NCBI GenBank assembly: GCA_016838895.1
Contig: JAEKNU010000005.1
Location: forward strand, 1-64,000
Length of the DNA: 64,000 nt
From: Chloroflexota bacterium
GTDB taxonomy: Bacteria; Chloroflexota; Anaerolineae; Anaerolineales; Anaerolineaceae
Reading direction: 5' to 3'
Shown here: positions 52,441-64,000 of the stretch, piece after piece
How positions within the stretch are numbered: position 1 is the first letter of the stretch
Layout: each line of letters begins with the position of its first letter
Position numbers and translations under genes: made by a program
The notes under the pieces: generated by a model
Seen by the model: only the letters and a program-made list of their open reading frames with translations
What the model was told of the DNA's origin: nothing
Databases searched by the model: none

Positions 52441-52860
52441 ATGACAAAAAACAATCATACAATCCTGCATATCGAAGACAATTTTGAAAACAGAGTTCTA
52501 GTGCGCCGTTTATTACAATTCGCTGGTTTTGATATACACGAAGCTGAGAATGCTTATGATGCCCTGGAGCAATTAGAATCAGTTACCCCAGATATTATCC
52601 TGATGGATATCAATATGCCGGATATAGATGGATATTCTCTTACCAGGCAATTAAAATCGAATATCAAATTCCGCAATGTTCCCATTATTGCCATTACCGC
52701 AAATGTTATGAAAGGGGATCGAGAAAAAAGTTTCCTGGCTGGTTGTGACGGTTACATTGATAAACCCATTAATGTCGATAGTTTTATTGATCAAATTGAA
52801 GGCTTTCTTAGTAGATTCAATCCCCGCAAGCAAGTAAACAACAATAAGAGAAAACTATGA
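52441..52860 (+). CDS. Stand-alone response-regulator receiver protein
   Basis: The 139-residue protein is a single REC domain: acidic pair in ILHIEDNFEN, phospho-acceptor Asp in ILMDINMPDIDGYSL, Thr in AITANVMKGD and Lys in YIDKPI. A short basic C-terminal tail follows. With no output domain, it should act by protein contact, as do DivK/CheY-like proteins, which it resembles in HIEDNxxNRxLVRRLL. AGGAG lies four bases before ATG. Its stop overlaps the second receiver gene by four bases. Confidence 0.92.
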   Translation: MTKNNHTILHIEDNFENRVLVRRLLQFAGFDIHEAENAYDALEQLESVTPDIILMDINMPDIDGYSLTRQLKSNIKFRNVPIIAITANVMKGDREKSFLAGCDGYIDKPINVDSFIDQIEGFLSRFNPRKQVNNNKRKL

Positions 52861-53297
52861 CAGATGAAAAGATATTCTTACTAAAGGAAAAAGAGACACT
52901 CCCAGAAGATACTTTTGTCTTGGTAGTGGAAGATAATGTGTCCAACTTTGTGTTAATTGCTCGAATGTTGGGTCATATCGGAATTCATTGCGAATGGAAA
53001 ACTTCAGGGTATGAAGTTGTTGAGTTCGCAGATACACTTCCAAAAATTGATCTTATCTTAATGGATATTCGTCTTCCCTATGAAGATGGATATGGGGCCT
53101 TGAAAAAAATACAGGAATCAGCTACATTGCGTAATGTACCCATCGTGGCCGTTACAGCTGAAGTAAGTGAAGCCCAAATAAAGCGTGCAAAAGAAGCAGG
53201 GTTTGATGGCTTTTTAGGAAAACCTCTATCCCCAGATAAATTTCCTGATCAAATTCACAAAATCTTATCTGGTGAACCCGTCTGGGATATGAATTAA
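52857..53297 (+). CDS. Second stand-alone receiver protein
   Basis: The 146-residue protein has VLVVEDNVSNFVLIARML, phospho-acceptor Asp in ILMDIRLPYEDGYGAL, Thr in AVTAEVSE and Lys in FLGKPLSPDKF. Its receiver domain is preceded by about 20 charged residues. It is a paralogue of the preceding gene by layout, but differs in the surface-exposed segments. Again there is no output domain. It is 15 bases before the first GAF membrane protein. Confidence 0.92.
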   Translation: MTDEKIFLLKEKETLPEDTFVLVVEDNVSNFVLIARMLGHIGIHCEWKTSGYEVVEFADTLPKIDLILMDIRLPYEDGYGALKKIQESATLRNVPIVAVTAEVSEAQIKRAKEAGFDGFLGKPLSPDKFPDQIHKILSGEPVWDMN

Positions 53298-56300: not shown

Positions 56301-56702
56301 ATAGTAGGCTATGAATCTGAATTTGCAGCTCCGATTATGTATCAAAATCGATTTCTGGGTGTCATCTATACAAAAACAAACAATCCTACAACGATTCAAG
56401 AAAACTATCGCGACTTTTTCCAGGCGTTGATTAGCAGTCTTGGATCTATTATTTCAAACTCTGATCTAATTCAACGTATCCGTATTCAGATTGAGCGTCA
56501 AAAACAAATTTATGATGTCACGACGAAAATTCGTCGGTCAGTTGATTTTGAAACTATTCTCCAAACTTCTGCATCAGAAATCGGCAAACATTTAGGCGCT
56601 ACGCGAACAAAAATCATTATCCACCCTGATATTAAGGAATTAACCACTTCAATCGCTGATAATGGCAATCAACCATCCTCAAATAGAGAGGTCTTATCAT
56701 GA
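53313..56702 (+). CDS. Membrane sensor with HAMP and four GAF domains, no output domain
   Basis: The 1129-residue protein has TM 23-46, a large extracytoplasmic region (47-312), TM 313-337, a HAMP domain (337-392), a coiled linker, then GAF domains at about 410-560, 565-725, 735-895 and 905-1050. GAF3 has the Chloroflexota-type loop FPNPQLPDTRSELAIPL. The C-terminus (1065-1105) is the beginning of a further GAF (IYDVTTKIRRSVDFETILQT and one or two strands) that is never completed. There is no histidine-kinase, GGDEF, EAL, cyclase or methyl-accepting domain. It overlaps the next gene by four bases (ATGA). It most likely senses an external ligand and signals by protein contact. The GAF ligands are unknown. 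Confidence 0.85.
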   Translation: MSLKSSITHPVSRAYEFKGSLVRNNLFFILLISLIPLILFGTSTYIRTQQIMLQNTEAQMNDFLDSKTAHFSSINASGNQIITQLAESEDFVGILTQYTSNPNSEQINEQLENYLSESIVEFSEGEAISLTDVSIASREGLILASSNQNLSNIDVSGNLELQQILDFNEQHSSTLYNPSPMYVSNLVFLYTMPIAEFDDLILIGSYIEANPTLSIEMSNSFYPNAHAYYLINDEMLIGVEDMTAGTLKQLDFSPEHQNILSSAMQDMDSAGFVTYSSFDEQEVLGGTTVLGNTGLAILLEIPQNEVYSEVPVFGTINLLLLVPALVLSGFLFYLLSSRIIRPLIRLSEHARDFALGDWNQRVVVDRDDEIGLLANSFNQMVEQITDLYYSLEQKVENRTEQLGVASEVMQVVTSSTKRDELLKDAAELIAERFHYTYVSLYIVDAQGANAVLQHETGRSSDYFAPIRPRIRLGTESIVSKAIVDSHVEINNLSEETPDNPLPQSARNESAIPIAFANQVLGALYVQSPKHEPFDEEILPILQTISNQIASGIQSTLLIESAQINLEETTLLYRASRQITQVQYVDELTDIIQETMQQTAYLSGIFFTEEGHLSTYFLHDPAEPWRTAQFSDLINIDQVVDQLSSSQMLLFDDLSARSEFDSLLSYFIQYNCTSAVVFPIQASNKLTMVVVIGSREPTPMTETSLQPYANLFEVVTSSMERLAVQSTLEVRAKQLQTTAEIARDTSASLNLDELLQYSINLIRDRFGFYHASVFLMDPFNEYAELKESTGEAGKLLKEAKHRLAVGSQSVVGQATAQNKPQIINDVTATEDYFPNPQLPDTRSELAIPLSIGDQILGAIDVQSYEFDAFSADDVQILQILADQLATAVLNANLFEQTTTNLSQYQLLQEITTKVSASGSPEEAIYTTVSELRKALPQFQIAVFTPLSSTVLEMEASAGLSDEDERNFSSVQIGEGIIGEAAQKKEIVYKENIPETDKIVGYESEFAAPIMYQNRFLGVIYTKTNNPTTIQENYRDFFQALISSLGSIISNSDLIQRIRIQIERQKQIYDVTTKIRRSVDFETILQTSASEIGKHLGATRTKIIIHPDIKELTTSIADNGNQPSSNREVLS

Positions 56703-58342
56703 ACCTGAAAATTGCAAATGCCCAAGCATCCTCTCCTGTTGAAGATCATTTGACATCTCTTTCTGAATTAAAACAGAAAGTGTTTGAAAATGCATTATTT
56801 GTCAGTATTGCCGGTGCAAGCATTTTGTTAGTGGCAAGTATATTCGAGTTTTTAGCACAAGGCATTACACCACTGATAAATATCATTTTCACTTTCTTAT
56901 TCCTGGCATCTTTGGTCGCAATAAAACTTATTCGCAACTTATCAAACTATGTTCAAACAATTATCATGGTAGGCAGTGCATACTTATATGCAGTTTGGCA
57001 TTTAGTACTATTTGGTGCGGTAAGTGATGCAACATTAATGCTTGTTTACTTCTTTGTTTTGAGCGCAATATTGTTTCAGAAAGAAATCCACTATGTGCTA
57101 ATTGCAGTAGGCGCCATCACCTGGTTTGCATTCGTTGGTTTGTATTCATTTACAACCCTAAATCCAATTCTTCAGATTGAATTGGCAGGATATGGCAGCT
57201 TTTGGTTTGTCATTGCAATATATTTTGTGATCATTGCTGCACTTATCATTATCACTATTAATAGCTATCTAAAGTCCACTCAAAATTCGATAGATTACTT
57301 CGATTTATTAACATCGAGTGTCAAAGTAGACAATGAAAATTTGCATTCTGAATTACAGGACAATAAAGATACGCTTCATAAAAAATTAATTTATATTCGT
57401 ACTGCCACGCAAATTGCACGATCAATTTCCACGGCCAAAGATGTTGAAGCAGTTCTACCCGTAATCGCTGATCGAATGACAAATCAATTAAACCTATATT
57501 ACACTGGTGTCTTTCTCATTGATCCTACCGGACAATATGCAGTTCTGATTGCTGGTAGCGGCGAAGCTGGTCAAAAAATGCTGTTGGAAAACCATCGTTT
57601 TGGTGTTGGTGGTCCTTCTATGATAGGCTGGACAACCTCACATCACCGACCTCGTATCGCTTTGGATGTTGGTGAAGAAGCTACACGTTTCAGTAACCCG
57701 CACTTGCCATTAACTCGTTCTGAATTATCAATACCAATTCTTAGTAAGAATACAATTTTAGGTGCCATTTCCATTCAATCTACCAAAGAATCTGCTTTTG
57801 ATGATGATGATGTCCTAATCTTTCAAGGTATTGCTGATAACATCGCAACTGCTCTTGAAAATAGTCGTTTATTCATTCAGAACCAACGGGATCTTGAAGA
57901 AATTTTGGCCCTGAATAAGCAGTTCCTTGAGCAAACCTGGGCAAACATCATTCCAAAAGAAGAAACTCTTAGTTATACATTTGAAGATCCAAATATTTTA
58001 AGTTCCGATGGCGAATTTAAAACCATTGAATTTCCAATCGTTCTTCGTGATCATGAAATCGGTCGGCTTGTTGTTGAATCGCCAACTAAGACAATTACGC
58101 CAGAACAATTTGAATTTGTTGACTCCGTACTTTCCCAATCTGCGTTGGCATTGGAATCATCAAGACTGTTATTGACAGCCAACCTTAGAACAGCGCAGGA
58201 AGAAAAAATCAGTCTTCTTACAGCCAAACTTACACAGATGGCGAATGTAGAAGATATTATAAAAACTACACTTCAGGAAGTAAATCAAATTCCTGAGGTA
58301 ACTGCATCAACTATTAAATTGTTTTCTGAATTTGAAGAATAA
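56699..58342 (+). CDS. Polytopic membrane GAF protein, no output domain
   Basis: The 547-residue protein has about six membrane helices (32-190), a coiled linker (200-230), a full GAF domain (240-393, with NPHLPLTRSELSIPI), a helix with a conserved Trp (FLEQTWANI), a reduced GAF-like unit (about 440-490, FPIVLRDHEIGRLVVES) and the incomplete GAF start at the C-terminus (504-547). There is no recognisable enzymatic output. The layout repeats that of the next two genes, so they are paralogues. Twenty-nine bases separate it from the next. Confidence 0.82.
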   Translation: MNLKIANAQASSPVEDHLTSLSELKQKVFENALFVSIAGASILLVASIFEFLAQGITPLINIIFTFLFLASLVAIKLIRNLSNYVQTIIMVGSAYLYAVWHLVLFGAVSDATLMLVYFFVLSAILFQKEIHYVLIAVGAITWFAFVGLYSFTTLNPILQIELAGYGSFWFVIAIYFVIIAALIIITINSYLKSTQNSIDYFDLLTSSVKVDNENLHSELQDNKDTLHKKLIYIRTATQIARSISTAKDVEAVLPVIADRMTNQLNLYYTGVFLIDPTGQYAVLIAGSGEAGQKMLLENHRFGVGGPSMIGWTTSHHRPRIALDVGEEATRFSNPHLPLTRSELSIPILSKNTILGAISIQSTKESAFDDDDVLIFQGIADNIATALENSRLFIQNQRDLEEILALNKQFLEQTWANIIPKEETLSYTFEDPNILSSDGEFKTIEFPIVLRDHEIGRLVVESPTKTITPEQFEFVDSVLSQSALALESSRLLLTANLRTAQEEKISLLTAKLTQMANVEDIIKTTLQEVNQIPEVTASTIKLFSEFEE

Positions 58343-58371
58343 GGGAAAAGTATTTCCGAGGAGTTTATTGC

Positions 58372-60108
58372 ATGAGTCTTTTCCAACGGATTAAACCAGG
58401 ATCACTACCGGATGAAATTAATCCACAGAATACAATTGAAGTCATTAATGAGAAGGTATTACAAACTTCTCTGCTCATTAATGGATTACTTGGTACTCTT
58501 TTCTTGGTATCAGGTTTGCTTATATCAATAAATAATGGCTCCTTACTGATAGGGATCTCAGCAATTTTTGTTTTTGCAGTATCCATTATTCTGGTATTCT
58601 ATCGTGATTTATCACGCAATATACGGTCTGTTGGTCTTCTTTCAATGCTTTATTTAGCAGGTGTATCAGGATTGTTATTTTTCGGTGCAACCGGTATTGA
58701 TATTCCATTTTTTATCGCTATTGTGGTTTGTGCCATGTTTATTTCAACCCTTAGAACATCAATTTACGTTGGAGCCCTGAGTGTTTTCACCCATCTAATA
58801 TTGGGTATCTTCATTTCATATCTTCCAGAATCAGGTTCTTTATTAAATACCTACCTGCAAACAACTGGCGGCGCATACTGGGCTTTAACATCATTTGTCA
58901 TGCTAATTATTAATGCATTAATTTTACTAATCATTTACAGATATAAAAATGATTTGACACAACAGATTCTTGAACATTCTAGGAAAATGGACTCCGTTTT
59001 TGTTGAAAAACAATTACAAAAAGAGAAAATTGTTCAGCAAGAAGAGCTATTAGACATAAAAATCAAAAATATGGAATTTCTGAGTCTCATGGTCCGGGAA
59101 TTCAATCAAATCTCAACACTAGCCAATCTCTACGATTTTTCAGTTGATAAATTACAAAAAGCGCTAAATTTATACCATATTGGTATCTTCATTCTATCTT
59201 CAAATCAGCGAAAAATTTCGCTTGTTGCAGCTTCGGGTGAATCAAGAGATGAAATGCTCCGACAATATCAGGATATGAATCTTCATGAGGTAGGTGTATT
59301 AGAAGAAACATTCCATCATCAGGAAACTCGCATTGCGATTAATCGCGGTGGACAATCAATTAATTTCCTTTTACCTGAGTCATTATCCGAAATCGCTATC
59401 CCTTTACGAAGTCGAAATCAGATTATTGGTATTCTAAGTATTCATCAGAATGACCTGGATGCTTTCACACAGGACAATATTATCCAATTCCAAATTATTG
59501 CTGAACAATTATCAAGTTCAATTGAAAAGCTGCAATTCTTTGAAGAAAATCAGCAAAATATATTTGAGATTGAAAAAGGATATCGTGAATTTACCGAAAG
59601 ATCCTGGCGTGAATATATGGTTGCTGCCAGGAAATCACACAGCATTCGATTTGTCGGTGGCAGTTTTACAGAAGCTGAAAGCGGTTTAGACGATGAAGTG
59701 CTTGCAATTCAAACCACTGGTTTGCCTGTTTTCATCAGAGAAACACAGCAGGGTGATAAAAACCAGAACAATGCAAAATTACTCATTCCTATCAAAATTC
59801 GTAATGCCGTTTTAGGTGCAATGAAAGTTGATTTCAATTCATCTCAAATTTCCGGTAATGTCCAACAATTAATTGAGAATATTTCTGAGCGTTTATCAAT
59901 TTCAATTGAAAATGCGCGCTTATTGGAAGAGGTGCAGATGAGAAGTGCACGGGACCATCTTATCACTACAGTTTCATCAAAGGTTCGTGCTTCAACTGAT
60001 ATTGATGGTATTCTTCGCTCAACTGCTGAAGAAATTGGCAATGCATTTGGTTTGTCAAAGGTTATTGTTCAATTAACCAAGAATTCTGAAATAAATACGG
60101 AAAATTAA
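58372..60108 (+). CDS. Polytopic membrane GAF protein, no output domain (second)
   Basis: The 578-residue protein has about six membrane helices (33-190), a charged coiled coil (195-235), a diverged GAF domain (245-390), an aromatic helix (FTERSWREYM, 407-416), a reduced GAF-like unit (460-520, LIPIKIRNAVLGAMKV) and the incomplete GAF start (525-570, ITTVSSKVRASTDIDGILRS). The TRSE loop of the GAF domain is replaced by LPESLSEIAIPL. No kinase or other output domain is present. A single base separates its stop from the next start. Confidence 0.82.
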   Translation: MSLFQRIKPGSLPDEINPQNTIEVINEKVLQTSLLINGLLGTLFLVSGLLISINNGSLLIGISAIFVFAVSIILVFYRDLSRNIRSVGLLSMLYLAGVSGLLFFGATGIDIPFFIAIVVCAMFISTLRTSIYVGALSVFTHLILGIFISYLPESGSLLNTYLQTTGGAYWALTSFVMLIINALILLIIYRYKNDLTQQILEHSRKMDSVFVEKQLQKEKIVQQEELLDIKIKNMEFLSLMVREFNQISTLANLYDFSVDKLQKALNLYHIGIFILSSNQRKISLVAASGESRDEMLRQYQDMNLHEVGVLEETFHHQETRIAINRGGQSINFLLPESLSEIAIPLRSRNQIIGILSIHQNDLDAFTQDNIIQFQIIAEQLSSSIEKLQFFEENQQNIFEIEKGYREFTERSWREYMVAARKSHSIRFVGGSFTEAESGLDDEVLAIQTTGLPVFIRETQQGDKNQNNAKLLIPIKIRNAVLGAMKVDFNSSQISGNVQQLIENISERLSISIENARLLEEVQMRSARDHLITTVSSKVRASTDIDGILRSTAEEIGNAFGLSKVIVQLTKNSEINTEN

Positions 60109-60109
60109 T

Positions 60110-63040
60110 ATGACAACACCATTACTAAAAAACCTGAATACAAGACCTCTAACGCTTCAAGCCGATCAAGATGCTGAAGCAAATCAAATACAGATTATCT
60201 CCCTGTTTTCGATAATTGCTGCCATCTCCTTGGGGATACTCACGTTATATTCTGTATTCTCGACAATTTTCCGTGCTTCTAATCAAACCGAAATCTGGTA
60301 CTACGCAATCATTAGTGGTTTTGCTCTTATTTCTGGTGTAGCTTGTTTTCTAGTCAGCTCCTATCTCTTCCGAGATACACCTAATATTCGGATTTTCATT
60401 CTTAATGCTGCTTTTCAAATGCCACTGATCATAACATCTCTGCTGATAAACAGAAGTGGACCTTTTGCTGCATTGTTGATTTTGCCCTACACACTTACGC
60501 TTTCTTCCATTATTGAATACGATAAACAAAGTGAAACGATTTTAATTACAGGTATTATCGGTGCTTTTGTTACCGCAGTCATAAGTGTATTTTCTCCGTT
60601 CACACAAATCCCCGATCTATTGATCACCATCTATATGGGCATCGGCATAGTTGTCTTTATTGGATTATTTGCATACTTTCTGATTTCGAAGAAAGTACAA
60701 GCAACGTTACGCCTGAAATTAATCGCAACGGCATTTTCCATTGTTATTGTGCCAGCAGTAATTTTCTCGGTTGTGCAATATCGATCTCTGGCAACACTGC
60801 TTCAGCGCCAGGCATTTGATGGACTATCCTATGCATCAGAAAAAACATCAGATTCATTAAATGCTTTTATTCGTAATAACCAGACGAACCTTGATCGTCT
60901 ATCCACATTTCCACTCTTTGAATACTTCTTAACTATGGATAATCCAGACACATACGCAACAATTATGGACAACACGATCAATACTGCAACCAGAAGTTTA
61001 ATCACCTCTGGACCAAGAGAGTTCATAATTGATTTCATAATTCTGGATATTGATGGGGAAATACTTTATACCTCAGGGGAAACAAATGATGGGATTCGCA
61101 TGAGCACCCATGATAGTTTCCGTAAACCAATGTTGGAAAAAGTACAATACATTAGCCCAATTCGATTTGAGCGATTTCAGAATCCATACTTCGATTTTTC
61201 AATACCTCTTTATGGTTCCACAGATACTACTGAGCCAATTGGTGTTTTTATTGTACGCTATGATTCAAAAGTACTTGACTATATTCTTGAATTAAACAAT
61301 CAATTGTATGGCGAATATTCAGCTCCATTGCTAGTAAATGATTACAATATCGTAATTTCAGATTATTTTAACTATTATGTCAAATATTCACTTCTTTCAG
61401 AACTTACAGGTCTCGAAATCGATTATTTGACACTTGAAAATCGTTTACCGCCTGGAACATTAATAAAAGAAAATCTTGATTATGGACCAATTATCAATGC
61501 GCTTTCAAATCCCGAAACAGAAGCAAACTTTAGTGGGACTTTAAAAGATATTACTGGACCTGTAAATGTATTAGGTTCAGTAAAACCAGTTACAAATACG
61601 GATTGGAAGGTGATTTATGTATTTGATCAATCTTCATCAATAGGCCAAATTGATCGTCAAGCAGATATTCTTGTCTTAATGACCGCAGTGTTGACAGCTT
61701 TGGTTAGCATGATCGCTATCAATCGCGCCAGTACAATTATTTCTCCAATTACAGATCTGACGATCACAGCTGATAAAATCGCAAGTGGTGACCTGACCGC
61801 TAAATCTGGTATTGAAAGTAGTGATGAATTAGGTACGTTGAGTAGCGTTTTTAATCTGATGACCAAACAGCTTCAATCATTGATTAATGATCTTGAAGAT
61901 CGTGTTCTTGCACGTACCAGAGATTTAAATGAACAGAATCAACTTCTTCGATTGCGATCCCAGCAAATTCAAACGGTATCTGATGTTGCTCGAAACATTA
62001 CTCAAACTGTTGAGTTGGAAGTCTTATTACGTCGGGTAACAATTTTAATTAGCGAACGTTTCAACTTCTACCATGTTGGCGTTTTCCTTGTTGATGAGAA
62101 AGGTGAGTACGCTATTTTACGTTCTGCCAATAGTAAAGGCGGCGCGGAAATGCTTAATAATAATCACCGACTGCGCGTTGGTCATGTAGGTATTGTGGGC
62201 TATGTCACTGGTACTGGCCGACCTCGTATTGCAACAAATGTTGGTGAGGATGCTGTTTATTTTGACAATCCATTCCTACCAGATACGCGTTCTGAAATGG
62301 CTTTGCCGTTGATCATTGGGGACACAATTATCGGTGCGCTTGATGTACAATCCACTGAACCAAATGCGTTTTCTAATGAAGATATTGAACTATTTAGTGC
62401 ATTGTCTGACCAAATTGCTATTGCTATCACAAATAACCGTCTCTACACTGAAACGGCTGCTGCGCTGGAAGAATTAGAATCAATTCACAGGCAATACCTT
62501 CGTCAGGAATGGGAAAAAGAAACTGATAAGAAATACATTCAAGCTTATCAATATACCCCGCAAGGTGTAAGTGCATTACAAAATGCACCGGTTGATATGA
62601 TCCCATCTGAAATTCAAGCTGGTAAACCCGTCATTCACCGTACAGAAGCTGATGAAGACGGTATGATGGAAACCACGATTGATATTCCGATTGTAGTACG
62701 TGGTGAATCTATCGGTATGATCCGCATGCAAGATGAAGTAAAAAAAGGTTTGGAATTTAACGAAAACGAAGCAGAAATTATTCAACAAATTTCTGATCAA
62801 ATTGCAATCGCTCTTGAAAATGCCCGCTTATTTGAGCAAACGGTTAAGCGTGCGGAACGGGAAAAGAAAGTTATGGAAATTACAAACCAATTCCGTTCAA
62901 CAAATAATTCACAACAAATGTTAAGTATTGCGATTGAAGCGATTCAAAAAGAACTTAGAACAACTCGTACACAGGTCATTTTCAAAAACCTGGAACGCTC
63001 TACAGGTCAGTTGGATAATGAATATGTAAGTGAAAACTAA
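60110..63040 (+). CDS. Large membrane sensor with extracytoplasmic, HAMP and GAF domains, no output domain
   Basis: The 976-residue protein has about six N-terminal membrane helices (28-195), TM 202-224, an extracytoplasmic ligand-binding region of Cache type (225-518, with ILDIDGEILYTSGET and DWKVIYVFD), TM 519-540, HAMP (540-595), coiled coil, a canonical GAF domain (630-785, FNFYHVGVFLVDEKGEYAIL, NPFLPDTRSEMALPL), the aromatic helix YLRQEWEKE (796-804), a reduced GAF-like unit (850-910) and the incomplete GAF start (918-962). It combines the polytopic part of the two preceding proteins with the HAMP/sensor part of the first. No catalytic output domain follows. Its stop is 19 bases before the ParA-type ATPase gene. 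Confidence 0.85.
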   Translation: MTTPLLKNLNTRPLTLQADQDAEANQIQIISLFSIIAAISLGILTLYSVFSTIFRASNQTEIWYYAIISGFALISGVACFLVSSYLFRDTPNIRIFILNAAFQMPLIITSLLINRSGPFAALLILPYTLTLSSIIEYDKQSETILITGIIGAFVTAVISVFSPFTQIPDLLITIYMGIGIVVFIGLFAYFLISKKVQATLRLKLIATAFSIVIVPAVIFSVVQYRSLATLLQRQAFDGLSYASEKTSDSLNAFIRNNQTNLDRLSTFPLFEYFLTMDNPDTYATIMDNTINTATRSLITSGPREFIIDFIILDIDGEILYTSGETNDGIRMSTHDSFRKPMLEKVQYISPIRFERFQNPYFDFSIPLYGSTDTTEPIGVFIVRYDSKVLDYILELNNQLYGEYSAPLLVNDYNIVISDYFNYYVKYSLLSELTGLEIDYLTLENRLPPGTLIKENLDYGPIINALSNPETEANFSGTLKDITGPVNVLGSVKPVTNTDWKVIYVFDQSSSIGQIDRQADILVLMTAVLTALVSMIAINRASTIISPITDLTITADKIASGDLTAKSGIESSDELGTLSSVFNLMTKQLQSLINDLEDRVLARTRDLNEQNQLLRLRSQQIQTVSDVARNITQTVELEVLLRRVTILISERFNFYHVGVFLVDEKGEYAILRSANSKGGAEMLNNNHRLRVGHVGIVGYVTGTGRPRIATNVGEDAVYFDNPFLPDTRSEMALPLIIGDTIIGALDVQSTEPNAFSNEDIELFSALSDQIAIAITNNRLYTETAAALEELESIHRQYLRQEWEKETDKKYIQAYQYTPQGVSALQNAPVDMIPSEIQAGKPVIHRTEADEDGMMETTIDIPIVVRGESIGMIRMQDEVKKGLEFNENEAEIIQQISDQIAIALENARLFEQTVKRAEREKKVMEITNQFRSTNNSQQMLSIAIEAIQKELRTTRTQVIFKNLERSTGQLDNEYVSEN

Positions 63041-63059: not shown

Positions 63060-63827
63060 ATGTTTGTCATTGCAGTTGCAAATGAAAAAGGTGGTGTCGC
63101 CAAAACCACAACTACCCTGTCCTTGGGATCGGTTCTTGCTGCAAAAGGGTATAAAACATGTATTGTTGACCTGGATGCGCAAGCAAACCTATCTCTTGCC
63201 ATTGGATTTGATCCTAATCAAACTCAAAAATCTGTTGCCGGTTTATTTCAAAACACCTCTACATTTTATGAAACCATCCAACAAACCAAAATTCAAAATC
63301 TTTGGTTAGTACCATCCAACCATCAGATGAGTATGTCAGAAAGGTTTTTACCTATTCAGAGAAATTATGAATACCTGCTCCGGGATATCATTCGGAAATA
63401 TTTTCAGGATTTCGATTATGTAGTTATCGATTGTCCACCATTCTTAGGTGCTGTCACGTTAAATGCTTTAGTTGCGGCAAATCTGCTGCTCATTCCTACG
63501 CAGGCTGAGTATTTTTCTGTATTTGCACTGAAAGGATTAATGGCCTGGATTAAACAAATTCGTTCAAAACATAATGCGCAACTTACCTATCGTCTTGTTC
63601 TAACCATGGTCGATAAACGCAATAAAATTCATCGCGTATTAAGCGAACAACTACGTAATTCGTTTAATAATGGGTTGTTCGAAACAACAATTAATATTGA
63701 TACCAAATTAAGGGAATGTCCAATCGCTGGTTTGCCAATTATTCATCATGCTGGCAAAAGCCGTGCTGCATTGCAGTATACAGCACTGGGAGAGGAGATC
63801 GTCAATTATGTCACAGAAACAAATTAA
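63060..63827 (+). CDS. ParA/MinD-family ATPase
   Basis: The 255-residue protein has the deviant Walker A NEKGGVAKTTTTLSLG (signature Lys and second Lys), IVDLDAQANLSLAIGF (switch), YVVIDCPPFLGAVTLNAL (Walker B) and PTQAEYFSVFALKGL. It is Soj/ParA-like, cytoplasmic, and lacks MinD's C-terminal membrane helix and an N-terminal DNA-binding extension. No ParB gene or parS-like 16-base palindrome is nearby. Position after four membrane sensors suggests an orphan ParA that positions a protein complex, as in ParC or PpfA, rather than DNA. That is inference. Confidence 0.92.
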   Translation: MFVIAVANEKGGVAKTTTTLSLGSVLAAKGYKTCIVDLDAQANLSLAIGFDPNQTQKSVAGLFQNTSTFYETIQQTKIQNLWLVPSNHQMSMSERFLPIQRNYEYLLRDIIRKYFQDFDYVVIDCPPFLGAVTLNALVAANLLLIPTQAEYFSVFALKGLMAWIKQIRSKHNAQLTYRLVLTMVDKRNKIHRVLSEQLRNSFNNGLFETTINIDTKLRECPIAGLPIIHHAGKSRAALQYTALGEEIVNYVTETN

Positions 63828-64000
63828 TAACAGACTCAATGAACTGTTCTCCGATATCAGCAATGATTTGTTGCAATCATCCGTCTCCGAACCGAGTATA
63901 GAAAACAATATTGATATCGGTTGGCGATGGGAATGTGATAAGGAAGGACTATACACATTCTGTTCTGATGAGATCTCAACGGTTTTCAATGTAACCCCTG
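63808..64000 (+). CDS. Start of a PAS-like sensor protein (cut by window end)
   Basis: The open frame begins at ATG 63808, overlaps the ParA-type gene by 20 bases, and has GAGGAG ten bases upstream. It is still open at base 64000 (64 codons). After about 37 polar residues comes GWRWECDKEGLYTFCSDEI, resembling the beginning of a PAS domain (W-x-W-x-x-D-x-x-G-x-Y). What lies beyond is not visible; a histidine kinase would be a common continuation. Confidence 0.65.
   Translation, partial: MSQKQINNRLNELFSDISNDLLQSSVSEPSIENNIDIGWRWECDKEGLYTFCSDEISTVFNVTP

Follow-up and report, generated by a model that had tools for sequence, protein, structure and literature searches.

Half-GAF tails in multi-sensor operons of Anaerolineales: a proposed head-to-tail chain of sensors ending at a hybrid histidine kinase

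Here we describe four sensor proteins, designated P1 to P4, which are encoded in a row within a 64,000-nucleotide stretch of a Chloroflexota genome (contig JAEKNU010000005.1, positions 1 to 64,000; hereafter the window) and which all end in an incomplete GAF domain, designated T. Analysis of these proteins and of related clusters indicates that T is very probably a donor element that docks in trans on a truncated GAF domain, designated n, in the protein encoded next, so that the sensors would form a head-to-tail chain ending at a hybrid kinase. The features that argue for this arrangement can be read from the sequences: T is universal on the sensors and mutually exclusive with a kinase core, T and n correspond to two halves of a GAF domain, T of one gene coevolves with n of the following gene, and the coupled positions follow both the GAF register and simple charge rules.

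In the proposed mechanism, the T of each sensor, consisting of two helices and strand β1, would act as the donor, and the n of the next gene's protein as the acceptor. T would complete the GAF fold of n, with β1 paired to the final strand of n in the register usual for a GAF. The links would follow gene order, from P1, which has T only, through P2 to P4, which have both n and T, to the hybrid kinase, which has n only. Because the long helix leaving n enters T, and hence the next composite GAF, a single rod could carry the conformational signals of several membrane sensors into one kinase, and the phosphate of this kinase would then go to receivers. We infer the physical binding of these proteins in the window, its stoichiometry, the assembly of the chain and the relay of signals along it.

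The operon and its half-GAF tails

The operon begins with two receiver genes, followed by P1, P2, P3 and P4, a ParA-type ATPase and, extending beyond the end of the window, a kinase gene (Table 1). The last of these encodes a hybrid histidine kinase, having HisKA, HATPase and receiver domains; its ORF may begin at an internal ATG further downstream. A search for related loci in genome contigs gave one match, outside the region of interest. Just past the window and 3′ of the kinase gene, Pfam matches define a PLP-dependent enzyme of the PALP/threonine-synthase type with a C-terminal receiver (L009:14911-16584, equivalent to contig C31 66810-68483). In many clusters the kinase is followed by an ORF about as long (550-660 aa) that has a receiver match, and the fusion is possibly an enzyme output of the system.

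Table 1. Features of the operon and the roles proposed for them
Feature	Position	Strand	Description
REC1	52441..52860	+	Receiver protein; Pfam Response_reg, E 1.4e-25
REC2	52857..53297	+	Receiver protein; Pfam Response_reg, E 4e-20
P1	53313-56702	+	1129 aa; membrane sensor with HAMP, several complete GAFs and C-terminal T; no n domain; proposed first link, donor only
T of P1	56496..56624	+	Half-GAF (two helices and strand 1), residues 1062-1104; key residue R1074
P2	56699-58342	+	547 aa; MASE11-like membrane part, GAF, n, T
n of P2	57872..58180	+	N-terminally truncated GAF, proposed from coevolution as acceptor for T of P1; key residue Q480
T of P2	58196..58324	+	Residues 500-542; key residue T512
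P3	58372-60108	+	578 aa; MASE11-like membrane part, GAF, n, T
n of P3	59536..59934	+	Proposed acceptor for T of P2; key residue R507
T of P3	59950..60078	+	Residues 527-569; key residue R539
P4	60110-63040	+	976 aa; HAMP-bearing membrane sensor, GAF, n, T
n of P4	62444..62839	+	Proposed acceptor for T of P3; key residue Q897
T of P4	62858..62986	+	Residues 917-959; key residue R929; proposed docking on n of the kinase
ParA-type ATPase	63060..63827	+	Pfam AAA_31, E 9.3e-49
Hybrid histidine kinase ORF	63748..64000	+	5′ end only, running past the window to contig position 66795; PAS - n - GAF - HisKA - HATPase - REC - REC
n of hybrid kinase			About residues 213-294; no T in the protein; proposed acceptor only, chain end

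It had originally been predicted that all four sensors end in half of a GAF domain, and the ORF ends and coordinates agree with this. T comprises the GAF entry helices and the first strand, about 41 residues, and is followed by 5-25 disordered residues, the distance between the end of the half-GAF and the stop being 25 residues in P1, 5 in P2, 9 in P3 and 17 in P4. A complete C-terminal GAF would have strands β1-β6 and a closing helix, whereas T stops after strand 1; by homology it corresponds to the first part of a GAF (helix 1 - helix 2 - β1). Pfam reports no GAF match at the four C-termini and marks complete GAFs elsewhere in these proteins. With a T profile (alignment A2) searched against the whole genome, the four C-termini were the four best matches (E 2.4e-16 to 9.3e-10) and the only further match was a weak one inside P1 (E 7e-5), although the genome holds about 50 GAF_2 matches. 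The profile also matches the start of an intact P1 GAF (18.4 bits), as well as GAFs of distant kinases.

The acceptor candidate, n, is a compact GAF that lacks the usual helix 2 - strand 1 start and was identified by a profile of its own. The n domains open with a helix of consensus Y-x-Q-Y-T-R-E-A-W, which is absent from intact GAFs and lies in the window at 57872-57960, 59536-59640 and 62444-62540. Two AF2 models were obtained, both of single chains and from shallow alignments of four sequences (mean pLDDT 68 and 71). In these models n is predicted to be a GAF-like sheet, with its last helix extending about 45 residues into T and followed by T helix 2, and strand 1 of T is left unplaced relative to its own n. 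Compared with PDB folds, the n-T model matches GAF structures, which indicates only that the fold is that of a GAF.

Clusters of the same kind across the order

Clusters of this kind are present across the order, and 107 of their regions, drawn from this order and phylum, were examined. Among the 3′-complete GAF ORFs in these regions, 579 without a kinase core end in T and 64 with a kinase core have no T. No ORF combines the two; five show neither, and three of those have the look of kinase ORFs that are broken or gapped. The pattern seen in the window is not due to chance and is far more extensive than the four proteins for which it had been claimed. Clusters consist of a REC-REC pair, with which most complete clusters begin at their 5′ end, one P1-type protein bearing T as well as complete GAFs, 1-12 sensors of the G-n-T layout, ParA, and a kinase with n and no T. 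In 501 of 584 tail proteins n directly precedes T; the remaining 83, mainly products of the first gene, have a complete GAF at that place. Viewed from the T-only first gene through the kinase, the number of T elements equals the number of n domains in 25 of 32 clusters and exceeds it by one in the other seven. Only an n directly before T or in the kinase was counted, so that n domains situated further upstream, as in G-n-G-G-G-T genes, escaped the count.

A comparison of the C-termini of homologues, proposed with the original prediction as a check, found T to be conserved through the end of strand 1. Conservation is 2.1 bits up to that point and 0.6-0.8 bits from the very next residue onward; the stretch that follows is variable, rich in E, G, P and S, and has a median length of 13. 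This disordered end might still have a weak second role. It had also been considered that homologues might continue into complete GAF-kinase proteins, making the tails degraded copies. Close homologues do not, and only distant lineages do: in distant single-chain kinases (L130-L134, L137) a T-like start belongs to a complete GAF shortly before the kinase core. These T-like starts suggest where T originated rather than that the tails are degraded copies, and the single-chain form is possibly the ancestor of the split form. By eye, the second part of this GAF, Y-x-W-x3-G-V-x2-L, resembles the Y-x-Y-x3-G-V-x2-L of n; in a "Rosetta stone" comparison, an n-segment profile found no match in the GAFs of these same kinases, and the resemblance is therefore given no weight here.

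One genome (G432) has three separate loci with ParA of this kind (L183, L184 and L185), so several chains of this type may be present together in a single cell.

Coevolution of T with the following n, and remodelling of T

Mean-field direct coupling analysis was applied to n joined to T in several pairings, or offsets. Pairing T of gene i with n of gene i+1 gave a maximum inter-domain z of 12.3 and supplied 24 of the top 50 couplings in the alignment, compared with a maximum z of 3.6 (2 of 50) at offset -1 and 5.2 (6 of 50) at offset +2. Twelve within-cluster shuffles of T gave a maximum z of at most 3.8, and a control pairing of T(i) with the complete GAF of gene i+1 was near background (4.4; 4 of 50). 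Changing the pseudocount or the sequence weighting, down to 157 effective sequences, left the signal intact. This coevolution points to a contact in which T(i) would dock on n(i+1).

The couplings between β1 of T and the last strand of n (β1-β5) lie on one antidiagonal, of sum 260, which is the intact-GAF register and appears at offset +1 only. G17-G143, which links the two parts more strongly than any other pair in intact GAFs (z 5.9), has z 6.3 between the proteins and is one of the strongest pairs there. The between-protein couplings are in the intact-GAF register, as for a GAF split in trans. Overall, the correlation between the between-protein and intact-GAF maps is modest (Pearson 0.12; of the top 25 pairs, 9 lie near an intact-GAF pair, against 5.4 expected), which is perhaps due to noisy intact-GAF couplings and the extra helix of n.

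Two position pairs behave as a recognition code. At n113/T145, Arg or Lys meets Arg or Lys in three of 506 junctions, where 51 such cases are expected and the minimum in 1000 within-cluster shuffles was 39; of these three exceptions, which are Arg/Arg, two sit at kinase junctions. Arg in T goes with Gln in n, and Arg in n with Gly or Ser in T. At n91/T169, opposite charges are found 214 times against 138 expected (shuffle maximum 157), and like charges 14 times against 77 (shuffle minimum 58). These charge rules are confined to offset +1. The absence of Arg/Arg at n113/T145 is also seen within single families, with 0 of 47 in that of the window (f1; 8.2 expected) and 0 of 330 in f12 (33 expected). 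All four junctions of the window obey the rule, reading R-Q, T-R, R-Q and R-Q (T, then n), whereas the n and T of P3 itself would read R-R.

These results bear on the reading in which T turns back onto the n of its own protein, making n-T a single GAF rearranged by circular permutation in cis. The position of n directly before T in most tail proteins would suit it, as would the appearance of T and n as complementary GAF parts. The own-protein pairing, however, gave couplings at background (maximum z 3.8; 4 of the top 50), although shared descent should favour cis, and own-protein Arg/Arg at the code positions is seen 79 times against 69 expected. P1-type proteins with T and no n, and kinases with n and no T, would also have no place in it, and in the AF2 models the last helix of n runs on into T, with no fold-back predicted. 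We consider circular permutation in cis very unlikely and, with own n-T couplings at background, have rejected it.

The original prediction was that the tail may be a docking element, possibly for the receivers or the ATPase; the first part has held up and the choice of partners has not. Docking on ParA or on the stand-alone receivers, for example to place the sensors in the cell, could be imagined from the presence of ParA and two receivers in most clusters. However, five clusters (G070, G291, G005, G037 and G010) have no detectable ParA in the interval from the last T gene to the kinase, where the genes abut or overlap, so that T is kept without ParA in the cluster. ParA was rejected as the partner on this ground, and the receivers are not supported either, since the partner with which T specifically coevolves is the n of the next-encoded protein. 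We consider such docking very unlikely. In one further cluster (G003), ParA lies between the first and second sensors. ParA-type proteins position chemoreceptor clusters, and one may speculate by analogy that the role of ParA here is to position the sensor assembly.

The preferred reading, docking of T on the following n, also makes predictions across families. A model trained without a given family gave a mean score of 0.75 at offset +1 and scores below zero at all other offsets from -6 to +6; a further split set f12 against the others. The n that scored best for a given T was that of the next gene at 129 of 400 sensor-sensor junctions (chance 60), 26 of 51 P1 junctions (chance 10) and 24 of 31 kinase junctions (chance 6). 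The kinase junction is less certain, because the kinase n is shorter and conserved and the match may partly reflect conserved protein types, which may inflate its held-out figure. Applied to the four T/n pairs of the window, the model placed the true order 5th of 24, which is not decisive alone.

It might be argued that conserved gene order, or recombination between gene segments lying side by side, produced the whole T(i)-n(i+1) signal as a side effect, without contact between the proteins. Gene order is indeed conserved in part of the data, and the match at the kinase junction could be of such a kind. Offsets 0, -1 and +2, however, share the same history without the signal, which moreover survives within-cluster shuffles and transfer between families, and is concentrated in strand and helix pairs of the GAF register with complementary charges. 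We regard this explanation as having a very small chance of being correct.

Set against the starts of about 500 intact GAFs of these clusters, T proves to have been remodelled. Hydrophobic residues occupy strand positions 52 and 54 of the T profile (columns 173 and 175) in 19% and 18% of T elements, compared with 93% and 88% of intact GAFs. Position 39 (column 160) is Glu in 89% of T and Leu in 49% of intact GAFs, and position 22 (column 143) is Lys or Arg in 82% of T. Since T143-T160 is the strongest coupled pair of the n+T alignment, T is most simply a folded unit of two helices and a strand. The end of conservation after strand 1, this signature, and polar residues on a face that is hydrophobic in intact GAFs indicate that T is not a decayed GAF, in line with the original prediction, which considered decay unlikely. 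That T is a functionless remnant of a duplicated or truncated GAF, as its plain homology to the first GAF part might suggest, is next to impossible given its conservation in 579 proteins with a sharp end and its own signature (Glu at T160, Lys/Arg at T143), the remodelled strand face and the coevolution with another protein.

Relation to known systems and significance

A close parallel is with the docking domains of polyketide synthases such as DEBS, in which charged residue pairs form a "docking code" that predicts protein order (PMC2661021). As in those systems, a C-terminal element would recognize the next polypeptide, the code is charged, and gene order predicts pairing, the likeness here being one of coevolution rather than of binding. 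Unlike polyketide synthase docking domains, the donor and acceptor would be two parts of one sensory domain, the line would consist of membrane sensors ending in a kinase with no biosynthesis, and the acceptor of a sensor lies near the C-terminus instead of the N-terminus. Tandem-GAF proteins (PF13185/PF01590; multi-GAF hybrid kinases and phytochrome-like proteins) belong to the same family and have GAFs joined by long helices before a kinase, but in the present case the chain would run through several polypeptides, and at each junction one GAF would be divided between two of them. Split or complemented proteins, as in domain swapping and fragment complementation, similarly have a fold completed by a segment of another chain; here, by contrast, completion would be directional, between successive non-identical gene products, and pair-specific.

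As a rule, receptors in bacteria work either as individual proteins or as members of arrays. The present clusters resemble chemoreceptor arrays positioned by ParA-type proteins (PpfA, ParC) in having many receptors without an output of their own, one kinase and a ParA-family gene nearby. They differ in that linkage here would be through split GAFs and ParA is dispensable in some clusters; a Pfam scan of the operon proteins found no MCP signalling domain, CheA or CheW. An open-access literature search, with subscription papers and preprints outside its scope, found no description of a system of this kind.

We lean towards a general scheme in which ordered multi-sensor rods, of up to about 13 sensors per kinase, are built from split GAFs. 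As each split GAF would recognize its neighbour only, gene order would equal sensor order and signal order. If true, a fixed series of sensors in which every member completes a domain of its successor would represent a new principle of signal integration, comparable to the assembly-line docking of polyketide synthases. The n113/T145 and n91/T169 code is now available for testing, and orthogonal split-GAF pairs could be offered as protein connectors. For these bacteria, such a chain would explain why so many of their "GAF domain proteins" have no output domain.
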